Positions 7,824 to 21,910 of a stretch of DNA of 48,701 bases are shown here, piece after piece. Numbering within the stretch: the first letter of the stretch is position 1; each line of letters begins with the position of its first letter. The DNA is taken from contig QZKS01000085.1 in the NCBI GenBank assembly GCA_003599865.1, positions 1 to 48,701 on the forward strand, in the 5' to 3' direction. The DNA is from Desulfobacteraceae bacterium (GTDB lineage: Bacteria; Desulfobacterota; Desulfobacteria; Desulfobacterales; SURF-7). The notes under the pieces are model-generated. The model was not told the DNA's origin. It saw nothing but the letters and a program-made list of their open reading frames with translations, and ran no database searches. The translations under genes were made by a program, and so were the position numbers.

Positions 7824-8723
7824 ATGAGCCGGATGCCGCTGTTCGAAAAAATACCCGATGCCCTGCAAGTGATGACAGGCGCTGTTCTGATCAGTTTTTC
7901 AGGGGTCTATGTAAAGCTCTCCCAAACCGGCCCAACAGCATCCGGGTTTTACCGGGTATTTTTCGGCGGGATCATTCTCCTGTTGATCTCCCTGATTTCA
8001 AAACAACCATCCGTAAAAAGTCTCAAAGCTGGTTTCTTGTTTTTTCCGGCAGGATTTTTTTTTGCCTTGGACCTGTTTACCTGGCATAAAAGCATTCATT
8101 ATACCGGCCCCGGCCTTGCTACCATCCTCGCCAATTTTCAGGTTTTTTTCCTCGCCTTCATCGGAATCATCTTCATGGGAGAACGGGTAAATCTCAAACT
8201 GATATTGACAATCCCCATCGCCGTTCTGGGACTGTTTATGGTTGTTGGAATTGAATGGGATATTCTGGATGCTGACTATAAAAAGGGTGTTCTTCTTGGC
8301 CTTGCAACCGCAATCTGTTATACCGGATACATCCTGACCCTCCGGAAACTGCAATCCCTTGACGACTCACCGTCTCCGATTTTTACCCTGGCCATGGTAT
8401 CATTTATCACAGCGATTATTCTGGCCGGTTTTGCGTGGCTTCAAGGAGAGCCCTTGCGCATACCGGACCTTGAGAGTGCTTTCTATCTCATATTGTATGC
8501 CGCATTCAGCCAGGTATTGGGCTGGCTGTTTATCATCAACGGCCTGGCCTCCATCCGTACTTCCATGGCCGGTCTGTTGCTTCTTTTGCAGCCGTCACTG
8601 GCATTTGTCTGGGATATATTATTTTTTGAAAAGGTAACCACAGCTGCCAGCCTTACCGGAACCCTGATTACACTTGGAGCCATTTATCTGGGTTCCACCA
8701 GCAGGGCGGAATCCGATTCCTGA
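7824..8723 (+). CDS. EamA/DMT-superfamily transporter
   Basis: The 299-residue product is almost entirely hydrophobic with about ten membrane helices arranged as two EamA repeats (about 15-145 and 160-290), the usual drug/metabolite transporter layout. The first repeat opens with GAVLISFSGVYVKLSQ and contains FYRVFFGGIILLLISL; the second repeat ends with the typical GTLITLGAIYLG segment. Such permeases export or import small metabolites across the inner membrane; the substrate cannot be read from sequence. The last 40 bases overlap, tail to tail, the end of the FN3 lipoprotein gene on the other strand. Confidence 0.92.
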   Translation: MSRMPLFEKIPDALQVMTGAVLISFSGVYVKLSQTGPTASGFYRVFFGGIILLLISLISKQPSVKSLKAGFLFFPAGFFFALDLFTWHKSIHYTGPGLATILANFQVFFLAFIGIIFMGERVNLKLILTIPIAVLGLFMVVGIEWDILDADYKKGVLLGLATAICYTGYILTLRKLQSLDDSPSPIFTLAMVSFITAIILAGFAWLQGEPLRIPDLESAFYLILYAAFSQVLGWLFIINGLASIRTSMAGLLLLLQPSLAFVWDILFFEKVTTAASLTGTLITLGAIYLGSTSRAESDS

Positions 8724-17739: not shown

Positions 17740-18930
17740 TCAGGATCGGTAATCTGCATTAATTTTTACATAATCGACGGAAAAATCACAGGTTAAAACC
17801 GAGCAGGCCCCCTCCCCTGCGTTCAGATGGATCCGAATCAGAAACTCCGGTGTTTTCAATATGTTCGTTGCCTCGATTTCCGCATCCGGACCGCAGCCGA
17901 TTCCGTTTTTCACCATGCATACATCATTAAAGTAAATATCCATTTTTTCAGGATCCATTTCAACACCCGCCCTGCCGGCAGCCGCAATAATCCTTCCCCA
18001 ATTGGCATCCTCTCCGAACAGTGCGGTCTTGACCAGATTGGATTGTGCCACGGTATCGGCGATGCGCCTCGCATCATGGTCCGACCGGGCACCTTCCACC
18101 CGGATTTCAACCAGCTTGGTGGCGCCTTCACCGTCCTTCACCACCATTCGTGCCAGCTCCATCAGCACCTGATCCAGCAAACCCTGAAAAACGGAAACCT
18201 GATCATGGCTGTTGATTACCGCTCCGGATACGCCATTGGCCAGAAGGAGCACCATATCGTTGGTGCTGGTGTCTCCATCAACCGTAATCCGGTTAAAGGA
18301 TGGATCCACACCTTTTATGAGCATTTTCTGAAGAGTCTTCGGGTCTGCGGCAGCATCCGTACAGACAAAACACAGCATGGTCGCCATATCCGGCCGAATC
18401 ATGCCGGATCCTTTTGCAACGCCGGTGATCGTAAAGGATGTATGGTTGATTTCACCTTGTCGTGTCACAATCTTGGGAACCGTGTCCGTTGTCATGATCG
18501 CTTTTGCAAAGTCGGAGATTCCGCCGGCAGCCAGGGACTTGAACAATTCCGGGACAGCGCGTTCAACCTTTTCAACCGGAAGCGGCTTTCCGATCACACC
18601 GGTAGAAGCGGAAAGAACCAGCTCTTCGGCAATACCCGCTTCCGATGCAACAAACCGCGTCATGGACCGGTTGTCCAGCACACCCTGCTCGCCGGTGCAA
18701 CAATTGGCATTGCCGCTATTGGCAATAATGGCCCGACATTTGCCGGATTTGATCCGCTCCATGCCGAGTTTTACGCATGCGGCCTGAACCCGATTCCGTG
18801 TAAAAACACCGGCAGCGGCTGTTTCCGTTTCAGAATAAATCAGTCCGAGATCCATTCCCCCGTTTTTTTTCAACCCGGCTGCGCACCCGCTGAACTTGAA
18901 GCCGGGGCATCCTCTTACAACTGTCTTCAT
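17740..18930 (-). CDS. argJ: Bifunctional glutamate N-acetyltransferase / ornithine acetyltransferase
   Basis: The 396-residue product is full length for ArgJ. It shows the N-terminal FKFSGCAAGLK, the oxyanion region ASTGVIG (109-113), and the autoprocessing site KGSGMIRPDMATML, where the chain is cut before Thr184, the catalytic nucleophile. It transfers acetyl from acetylornithine to glutamate, closing the cyclic arginine pathway. AGGGG lies about nine bases before the ATG. A 12-base palindrome GAGAATATTCTC (18945-18956) sits just upstream and could be an operator. It is the first gene of the run argJ-rluB-dehydrogenase; no other arg genes are nearby. Confidence 0.97.
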   Translation of the reverse strand: MKTVVRGCPGFKFSGCAAGLKKNGGMDLGLIYSETETAAAGVFTRNRVQAACVKLGMERIKSGKCRAIIANSGNANCCTGEQGVLDNRSMTRFVASEAGIAEELVLSASTGVIGKPLPVEKVERAVPELFKSLAAGGISDFAKAIMTTDTVPKIVTRQGEINHTSFTITGVAKGSGMIRPDMATMLCFVCTDAAADPKTLQKMLIKGVDPSFNRITVDGDTSTNDMVLLLANGVSGAVINSHDQVSVFQGLLDQVLMELARMVVKDGEGATKLVEIRVEGARSDHDARRIADTVAQSNLVKTALFGEDANWGRIIAAAGRAGVEMDPEKMDIYFNDVCMVKNGIGCGPDAEIEATNILKTPEFLIRIHLNAGEGACSVLTCDFSVDYVKINADYRS

Positions 18931-18944
18931 GTCATCTAACCCCT

Positions 18945-18956
18945 GAGAATATTCTC
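18945..18956. promoter_or_regulatory. Palindrome just upstream of argJ
   Basis: GAGAATATTCTC, a perfect 12-base palindrome 15 bases before the argJ start codon. It vaguely recalls an ARG box half-site pair but is not a good match; it may be a chance feature. Confidence 0.25.
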
Positions 18957-19145
18957 GAACGTATACCAGATAGTAAAGACTGGAAAGAGAGTGAGAAGCC
19001 TTCTGGCAACCCCTTTTTTTTTATGTTATGACTGTTTCGGTTCACCGTATCGAAAAAAATGATATCATGGATATACCGTATGATATTATTCCGGACTTAC
19101 TAACAAATAAACCTTTAGACTGCAACAACGGAAAACAGGAAAACC

Positions 19146-19328
19146 ATGAGAAAATCCATTCCATCATGTCTCCAGTGCAGCGGGAAACTGGTCATCAAAA
19201 AACGATGACGACAGGTTTTTCTTTGCTGCACGGTGTGCGGCACAACCTTTTCTGTCAGGCAATACGCCGAATTCATGGACCAAATTCTGGAAAATGAACT
19301 GGCCGACATCCCCTGTGATCGTTTATAA
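19146..19328 (+). CDS. Dual-CXXC small selenoprotein candidate (in-frame TGA at 19206-19208)
   Basis: Read straight through, the frame gives 60 residues: MRKSIPSCLQCSGKL, VIKKR, TGA (residue 21), RQVFLCCTVCGTTF and a helical tail ending DIPCDRL, with the TAA stop directly abutting the truA ATG. CxxC pairs at 8-11 and 28-31 flank the TGA, as in a small zinc-ribbon or redox protein. ACAGGA lies about six bases before the ATG. Just after the TGA a stem-loop (19210-19256) with a GGU apical loop 23 bases from the TGA fits a bacterial SECIS element. From memory, Desulfobacterota carry a family of small proteins with two CXXC motifs and Cys or Sec between them; this appears to be a member. If TGA is a true stop, the gene would be a 20-residue remnant. 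Function of the family unknown. Confidence 0.78.
19210..19256 (+). promoter_or_regulatory. SECIS-like stem-loop after the in-frame TGA
   Basis: Apical stem GCTGCAC (19225-19231) with GTGCGGC (19235-19241), seven pairs with one G-U, loop GGT (19232-19234). Below an internal loop, AGGTT (19213-19217) pairs with AACCT (19244-19248), and GAC (19210-19212) with GTC (19254-19256). The loop is 23 bases beyond the TGA, in the range for bacterial SECIS elements, and contains the G and U that SelB contacts. Confidence 0.6.
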
Positions 19329-20150
19329 ATGAAACAGAATATTTTTTTGACGATTGAATATGACGGCAGCAGGTATCATGGATGGCAGCGGCAGAAAAAC
19401 GAACCAACCATCCAGGAAACAATCGAAACCGCTATTGCTGCCATGACCCGCCGGAAGGTTACACTGACCGGATCCGGACGCACCGACGCCGGTGTGCATG
19501 CACTGGGGCAGGCCGCCAATTTTCATTGTGAAACAACACTCACACCGGAAATCTTTTTGAAAGGTTTAAACAGCCTTCTCCCGGACGATATCGTCATCAA
19601 AACCTGCCGGCAGGTCGACGACAGCTTCCATGCCCGGTATGATGTCATCAATAAAACCTACCGGTATACAATCTGCAATCAGGATCTGCCGGTTGCCCTG
19701 GGCAGACAATTCTCATGGTTTATCCGGAAACAGCTGGATCTGGAAAAAATGAAAAAAGCCGTTCATTATATTATCGGAACCCATGATTTCAAAGCATTTG
19801 AAGCAGCAGGCAGCCCAAGATCCCATACAACCCGTACCATTTTCAATGCAGGAATTTCAGAAGCGGAAAACAATCGCATTCTGGTTACAATCCAGGCCGA
19901 CGGTTTTCTGCGGTATATGGTTCGCAACCTGGTCGGCACGCTGGTGGAAATCGGCCACGGCAAGCTCCGGCCGGAAGATATGGAAACGATTCTTCTTTCC
20001 GGGAACAGAAAAAATGCAGGCGCCACAGCACCCCCTCATGGCCTATGTCTGATATCCGTCGAATATCCGCCTTTTTCAAACCCCGACTTGACAGGATCAT
20101 ACCGCCTGTGTTTATCTACCTCTTCGAAATCACCAGAAACAGAAAGATAA
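19329..20150 (+). CDS. truA: tRNA pseudouridine(38-40) synthase TruA
   Basis: The 273-residue product is full length for TruA. The catalytic motif SGRTDAGVHALGQ gives Asp53, followed by LNSLLPDDI, the motif FHARYDVINKTYRYTI and the C-terminal GFLRYMVRNLVGTL. It makes pseudouridine at positions 38-40 in the anticodon arm of many tRNAs. The start codon immediately follows the stop of the small selenoprotein candidate, so the two are probably translationally coupled, and panE-like reductase follows by four bases. Confidence 0.96.
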   Translation: MKQNIFLTIEYDGSRYHGWQRQKNEPTIQETIETAIAAMTRRKVTLTGSGRTDAGVHALGQAANFHCETTLTPEIFLKGLNSLLPDDIVIKTCRQVDDSFHARYDVINKTYRYTICNQDLPVALGRQFSWFIRKQLDLEKMKKAVHYIIGTHDFKAFEAAGSPRSHTTRTIFNAGISEAENNRILVTIQADGFLRYMVRNLVGTLVEIGHGKLRPEDMETILLSGNRKNAGATAPPHGLCLISVEYPPFSNPDLTGSYRLCLSTSSKSPETER

Positions 20151-21127: not shown

Positions 21128-21871
21128 CTACACGGATGTTCTCCGGCTCCCGAATTTCATATTATGCACCTGAGCCTGCCGGTTCAGAATGTTCATCCGG
21201 GATTCCGTAAAAACCCCTTTTTGAATAAAATGGCGGCCGATCAACGGCTGACAAAGTTTCTGCCTTCCGGCAACCGCCATCTGCTGAAAAGATGTCAGGT
21301 AGCCGTGCCGCAGGGCAAAGTCTCCGAATCGATCATGATACTTCTTTTGGCGGATGATCGTCATGATGTCTTCAGATGTCAGATACCCCCAGTCTTTTGC
21401 GATCTGTCCAAAAAGCGGCCGCTGCTTTTTCTGCCATACAATCGCGTCAATCAATTCCTGCCAGGATATCATTTGGGAATAGTACAGATATTGACCGATT
21501 TTAAGCCTGCGTTCCGGAAGCACCCCATGGAAAAAATATCCCTCCTTCCATTTTGTTTTCGATTTTTTTGTCTTCCTTTCCCAGGCCGATTTTTCCTGAT
21601 TTGCCGGAGTTGCTGTCGCCTTTCCGGAAACATAGAATTTCAAAACCTCATATGCATTTGATACCTCTTGAAACCTTACCTGCAGTTCCTCCTCTGTGCG
21701 CCCAAGCATCATGGAGCGATCCGGATGTGTGGCAAGAGCCTTCTTACGAAATGCCATTTTTAATTCATCCGGATGCAATTTTTTCAGAACCGTTATGGAA
21801 AAATTGATGCTTGAATCAAACAAAAGGCTATAAGCCGATAACAGATCCAGTGATGATTGGTTCAATGTCAT
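21128..21871 (-). CDS. J-domain protein with C-terminal MshEN-like repeats
   Basis: About 247 residues. Residues 30-80 form a J domain with the diagnostic HPD (ALATHPDRSMM) between helices II and III, so the protein should stimulate an Hsp70 (DnaK) ATPase. The Gly/Phe and zinc-finger regions of DnaJ are missing. After a basic linker, two or three repeats follow, RRLKIGQYLYYSQMISWQEL, PLFGQIAKDWGYLTSEDI and RFGDFALRHGYLT, whose 'R-x-G-x-x-L-x-x-x-x-h-I/L-T' build recalls the MshEN domains of type II/IV secretion ATPases. I start at the ATG at 21871 (AGGGG about ten bases upstream) instead of the TTG at 21910. Client unknown. Confidence 0.8.
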   Translation of the reverse strand: MTLNQSSLDLLSAYSLLFDSSINFSITVLKKLHPDELKMAFRKKALATHPDRSMMLGRTEEELQVRFQEVSNAYEVLKFYVSGKATATPANQEKSAWERKTKKSKTKWKEGYFFHGVLPERRLKIGQYLYYSQMISWQELIDAIVWQKKQRPLFGQIAKDWGYLTSEDIMTIIRQKKYHDRFGDFALRHGYLTSFQQMAVAGRQKLCQPLIGRHFIQKGVFTESRMNILNRQAQVHNMKFGSRRTSV

Positions 21872-21910
21872 TTGAAATAACCCCTGTTGTGATGATACGA
21901 TCCCACCCAA

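Follow-up and report, generated by a model that had tools for sequence, protein, structure and literature searches.

A probable NF041197 selenoprotein gene with an in-frame UGA directly ahead of truA in a Desulfobacteraceae genome

A read-through frame of a known protein family

The locus studied here raises the question of whether an in-frame TGA just ahead of truA is a sense codon and, if so, which amino acid it stands for. The stretch of DNA that was analysed, referred to below as the window, comprises 48,701 nucleotides of contig QZKS01000085.1 from a Desulfobacteraceae bacterium. Its forward strand holds at 19146–19328 a single frame of 60 residues whose sole interruption is the TGA at 19206–19208. 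The frame starts with the ATG at 19146–19148, has a ribosome-binding site read in the sequence as AGGA at 19137–19140, 5 bases ahead of the ATG, and ends with the TAA at 19326–19328. The TAA abuts the ATG (19329) of the gene for the tRNA pseudouridine(38-40) synthase TruA, which lies at 19329–20150 on the same strand (TIGR00071, 213.2 bits, cut-off 142.85). The read-through translation is MRKSIPSCLQCSGKLVIKKRURQVFLCCTVCGTTFSVRQYAEFMDQILENELADIPCDRL. The first-pass annotation had described a 60-codon frame broken by one TGA, with a ribosome binding site, CxxC motifs on both sides of the TGA, a coding tail DIPCDRL and a stop touching the truA start, and the sequence bears this out in every part: the motifs occupy residues 8–11 (codons 19167–19178) and 28–31 (codons 19227–19238), the TGA is codon 21, and the tail is present in the translation. 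A promoter scan gave one site against a shuffle mean of 1.2, and no promoter is claimed.

With Cys replacing Sec, the read-through protein matched the NCBIfam model NF041197.2, named 'dual CXXC motif small (seleno)protein', with 68 bits (cut-off 40, E 5.6e-19), and the match extended over model positions 1–53 of 53. The window's genome (5.0 Mb) was also searched for NF041197, with 16 of the 30 first-look candidates scored; the window frame (59.3 bits, E 2.2e-15) was the sole match among those listed, which include no second match of the GxU type introduced below. Judged by these sequence scores, a chance match is excluded. The family of small dual-CXXC proteins with Cys or Sec that the first-pass annotation had mentioned is real: it is NF041197, it is already published, and the window gene is a new member of it. 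In PMC13188914, NF041197 appears as 'Dual CXXC motif small protein (hypothetical protein OS_HP3)' with the motif RxU, and Table 1 of the same source also files under it a 'hypothetical protein DW' with the motif GxU.

The family was then surveyed in 395 sampled genomes of the phylum and was found in 112 of them at E 0.001 and in 88 above the cut-off. Three of the 144 matches were left out, namely L093, which does not have the residues ahead of the Sec site, L130, which is cut by a contig end, and L143, whose TGA codons lie off the family site. The remaining 141 form a main set of 87 above the cut-off and a lower-scoring set of 54, a mixed bin that is mostly GxU with a few other types and that also received L091, which scores above the cut-off and was judged by eye to be GxU. 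By motif, the main set corresponds to the OS_HP3 type, and the DW type accounts for most of the lower set. The homologue of an Olavius symbiont (L036:3001–3180) was not counted, as its frame contains an in-frame TAG besides the TGA. With both codons it may contain pyrrolysine as well as selenocysteine, and a 2007 title on the Olavius symbiont cited in PMC13188914 names both of these amino acids.

The alignment of the 87 main-set members has five invariant columns: C8, C11, U/C21, C28 and C31. The first-pass annotation had proposed a search for homologues with Cys or Sec at residue 21, and the main set holds nothing else at this position, with TGA in 61 members and a Cys codon in 26. As 26 of the 87 homologues have Cys there, Cys is tolerated at the site. 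In the lower-scoring set, TGA stands at the family position in 52 of 54. On a quick tree of the main set, built on few columns, the Sec/Cys state changed at least three times, two of the changes being forced by starred branches.

The window protein resembles OS_HP3 in scoring above the NF041197 cut-off, in having both CxxC motifs and Sec at the family position, in its small size and in its conserved C-terminal D-R tail. It differs in having K19-R20-U21 where PMC13188914 gives the motif RxU. With DW it shares a similar CxxC-Sec-CxxC spacing, and its hairpin register (see below) is that of the lower-scoring set, but its C-terminus and neighbours differ from those of the GxU protein.

Coding constraint and a predicted hairpin past the UGA

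A profile of the part after the TGA was built from the 60 other Sec-form members with the window excluded. Of the window's 1690 stop-to-stop fragments it recognised a single one, at 19209–19325 (E 7.1e-19); recognition of the stretch ahead of the TGA by itself was weaker (E 3.9e-4). For the codons after the TGA, 43 close pairs of Sec-form genes, chosen for less than 35% difference and not independent of one another, gave differences of 0.17, 0.10 and 0.34 at the three codon positions. Beyond the stop codon the same pairs differed at 0.54, 0.57 and 0.56 of the bases, with no codon-position pattern. The window gene compared with 55 members of equal length gave 0.51, 0.38 and 0.62 for the codon positions after the TGA. 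The first-pass annotation had made its reading depend on coding constraint after the TGA; by the leave-one-out profile and the third-position-biased differences this constraint continues, and the computation shows UGA21 to be a sense position under coding constraint.

It could be supposed that the frame is a pseudogene or the product of a sequencing error and that the real gene is an overlapping frame of 89 codons at 19028–19297, which is open and is the longer one in standard calling. That frame is without any NCBIfam match at E 0.001, whereas the TGA of the 60-residue frame is found at the corresponding position of 60 other main-set members, which rules out a sequencing error, and the constraint persists past it. 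We therefore regard this supposition as having practically no chance of being right.

Downstream of the UGA, in silico folding gave a SECIS-like hairpin at 19224–19242 (+ strand), 23 nt past the UGA, with a stem of 8 pairs and a GGU loop at 19232–19234. The hairpin overlies the codons of the second CxxC motif. In the extended predicted fold (19210–19256), a lower stem formed by 19210–19215 with 19251–19256 encloses it. A 61-nt stretch had a z of -2.02, with 8 of 200 shuffles as stable, and against synonymous recoding the stretch downstream of the UGA in the window had a z of -2.05. The same comparison with synonymous recoding gave a mean z of -1.18 for the 61 Sec genes of the main set (34 below -1) and of -0.18 for its 26 Cys genes (5 below -1); the difference has a Mann-Whitney p of 6e-5 with related genes treated as independent. 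In the lower set the 52 Sec genes had a z of -0.82 and the two Cys genes, contrary to expectation, one of -1.07, so that hairpins are not confined to Sec genes. A seven-pair stem at the window's register was paired at 82% in the 61 Sec genes, at 54% in the 26 Cys genes and at 80% in the 52 lower-set Sec genes; these percentages come from an unsorted scan, as sorting into two registers by best fit favours pairing. Some lineages (e.g., L047, L052, L080 and L082) seem to use an alternative hairpin whose distance from the UGA is about 7 bases shorter and whose loop is AGGU or CGGU. Rfam applied to 18900–19500 returned two matches, at E 7.6 and 8, and no SECIS match; to our knowledge, Rfam is without a general bacterial SECIS model.

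A Sec system and a putative second UGA-reading system in one genome

The first-pass annotation had proposed that the genome be checked for selA, selB, selC and selD, and all four were found: SelA, SelB, tRNA-Sec and SelD are present in the genome of the window. The tRNA-Sec has a UCA anticodon, 8/5 arms and G73. According to PMC5330540, G73 is essential for tRNA-Sec, and it is for this reason that we assign the role of selC to this tRNA and not to a second, U73 tRNA described below. SelD itself contains one in-frame TGA. Four formate-dehydrogenase-like matches have one TGA each, all of them below the cut-off of that family. As SelA was found in 355 of the 395 sampled genomes, its co-occurrence with the family is weak evidence, necessary rather than telling. 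In the table read by eye, the only Sec-form genomes without a SelA match were G005 (L071; 79% complete) and G042 (L070; 67% complete).

Taken together, the family, the Sec genes and the constraint support the claim of the first-pass annotation that the locus encodes a probable small selenoprotein, and we consider it very probable that the window frame is a 60-residue NF041197 selenoprotein in which UGA21 is decoded as Sec. Guided by the hairpin at 19224–19242, SelB and the Sec-tRNA would decode this codon at least some of the time. The part of the claim that has to be qualified is the identity of residue 21, since the same genome has a second tRNA of a Cys type that leaves room for Cys.

This second UCA tRNA lies on contig C38 of the window's genome (L150:8738–8829) and has a long variable arm. 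It is selC*-like in its discriminator, U73, and in the bulged A of its T-stem; its first pair is G1:C72, and its predicted fold draws the twelve pairs as 7+5, while 8+4 can be drawn by hand. Directly after it comes a second, divergent selB (L150:8857–10770), followed by a seleno_YedE transporter gene. Directly ahead of it ends the frame of an IscA/HesB family protein (L150:8393–8737; NF038090, 99.4 bits, cut-off 85), which crosses a TGA at 8702–8704 near the C-terminus. In PMC7609411, selC* tRNA-Cys is characterised by U73, a bulged A and 8/4 arms, and is described from Syntrophobacterales and Desulfobacterales, where it accompanies a second selB. According to PMC11415595, a Desulfobacterales tRNA-Cys(UCA) charged by a special CysRS translates Sec UGA codons with Cys. 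The tRNA found here is like the selC*/SelB* system in its UCA anticodon, U73, T-stem bulged A and downstream second selB. It is unlike the Desulfobacterales selC* type, which has A1:U72 and cysS* downstream, in its G1:C72 and in that the genome holds no second CysRS above the cut-off, the single one being on contig C5. By analogy, Cys may be inserted at some UGA codons of this genome besides Sec. Because of this second, Cys-type UGA-reading tRNA, Sec is the likeliest residue at position 21 but not the sole possible one.

In its extreme form this would mean that UGA21 is read only as Cys, by the selC*-like tRNA-Cys(UCA) and the second SelB, and that the product is an ordinary five-Cys protein. 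Such a reading would draw on the U73 tRNA with its long variable arm and T-stem bulge directly ahead of the second selB, on the published systems just mentioned, and on the Cys tolerated at position 21 in 26 of the 87 homologues. Nevertheless, we find it highly improbable, as a canonical tRNA-Sec, SelA and SelB are also present, the hairpin is much less evident in the main-set genes of the Cys form, and Cys charging of the tRNA is putative, with G1:C72 and one CysRS above the cut-off. That UGA21 is decoded by two parallel systems, as Sec via SelB and tRNA-Sec and as Cys via the second SelB and the selC*-type tRNA-Cys(UCA), is easier to accept, though we still think it unlikely. Decoding as Sec thus remains our preferred reading.

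Predicted fold, possible chemistry and gene context

The AlphaFold model, made from two sequences, has strands at residues 14–20 and 23–28 and a helix at 37–53, with a mean pLDDT of 85–87 over residues 11–40 and of 75.5 overall, and a pTM of 0.51. Sec21 is placed by the model in the hairpin turn between Arg20 and Arg22, with C11 ten residues before it and C28 seven after it. The window protein alone had no match in Pfam at E 1. At the family level, 76 of the 87 members matched the double zinc ribbon model PF07191 at E 1 (best 1.7e-6), and the best solved-structure match of the family profile was 2jrp (6.8e-5). The best solved-structure match by fold was 6ted_I, chain I of RNA polymerase II, which we take to be RPB9 (Z 4.0, 39 aligned, rmsd 2.5). 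Foldseek with the window model gave no match reaching E 0.001; the first was ZifS (E 0.12), and no paper on ZifS stood among the 8 of 80 literature results that were listed.

Zinc ribbons such as RPB9, YfgJ/Zn_ribbon_6 and LysW have two CxxC knuckles at the ends of beta hairpins, and we know of no Sec at the hairpin tip of these proteins. The model of the window protein has such a hairpin, and its profile and fold matches to these proteins are too weak for claiming membership among them; for a LysW-like carrier, too, the matches were weak. From the model and the weak profile matches we infer that the two CxxC pairs would form one zinc-ribbon-like metal site with Sec21 at the hairpin turn, followed by the helix at 37–53 and the conserved tail.

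In selenoproteins, a position that admits only Sec or Cys usually points to redox catalysis. In the mechanism that we propose, the four Cys would hold a structural metal in the predicted site, and the exposed selenolate of Sec21 at the hairpin tip would carry out redox or nucleophilic chemistry on a partner protein or a small oxidant. As there is no adjacent Cys for a CxxU or UxxC pair, the group resolving the selenolate would have to be on another molecule. We put this combination of a structural metal and a reactive selenolate forward tentatively, giving it slightly less than an even chance. The main alternative is that Sec/Cys21 is a ligand of a metal or metalloid in a sensor, carrier or chaperone instead of a redox catalyst. 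Five invariant chalcogen residues in a protein of 60 residues and the zinc-ribbon-like profile matches are consistent with this, and according to PMC13188914 about 20% of selenoprotein families have predicted binding capacity, with about 70% of those interactions involving metals. On the other hand, the modelled residue 21 lies in a turn, at the distances from C11 and C28 given above, and no metal transport or resistance gene was seen among the named neighbour clusters, which are a minority of all clusters. We therefore judge a ligand role to be rather improbable, and the exposed selenolate remains the chemistry that we propose.

In the window, truA and then panE follow the gene, and argJ lies upstream on the opposite strand. 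Of the proposed tie to tRNA modification and pantothenate genes, the adjacency of truA stands, but the link is local and in our sample confined to the order of the window. Among the 87 members, truA lies at most 95 bases downstream in seven, all of that order, and about 940 bases off in one more of the same order; the Olavius homologue has truA about 1 kb away. In lying directly before truA, the window gene is unlike the sampled NF041197 members outside its order. For other lineages, the neighbouring gene on the same strand was pyrE-like in 13 genomes, fabD-like in 11 and asd-like in 4; each cluster was named from one representative. As the neighbours vary by lineage, a family-wide functional tie to truA or panE is rejected. 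The survey used our own gene calling on flanks of 1.5–2.6 kb, with some contigs ending early and a minority of clusters named; the counts are therefore lower bounds, and a shared partner could be missed.

Two further observations were made on gene context. In five genomes (L095, L099, L104, L113 and L129), the GxU-type gene overlaps the end of one that is topA-like, a name that NCBIfam supplied for L095 only. Elsewhere in the window, the protein encoded at 21128–21910 on the minus strand has a DnaJ domain and, after it, a c-di-GMP-binding motif of the MshE type (37.9 bits, cut-off 38).

Members of NF041197 are easily overlooked: when deep-Sep was run on its test genomes, a single known selenoprotein gene escaped it, and this was an OS_HP3 (PMC12013277). 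The family is widespread in the phylum sample, yet no function was found for it, and the papers listed by our literature searches included no study of its function or structure. The present analysis adds a predicted hairpin-tip Sec, a lineage-bound gene context and a second UGA-reading system in the same genome. It gives the family a testable shape, with five chalcogen residues that never vary across the main set, one of which is only Sec or Cys and is predicted at the tip of a hairpin. If dual decoding were true, a single gene would give two products, with either selenol or thiol at the zinc-ribbon finger tip, as set by the selenium supply. A genome with both a Sec reader and a selC*-like reader is a natural place to ask if one UGA can mean Sec or Cys.
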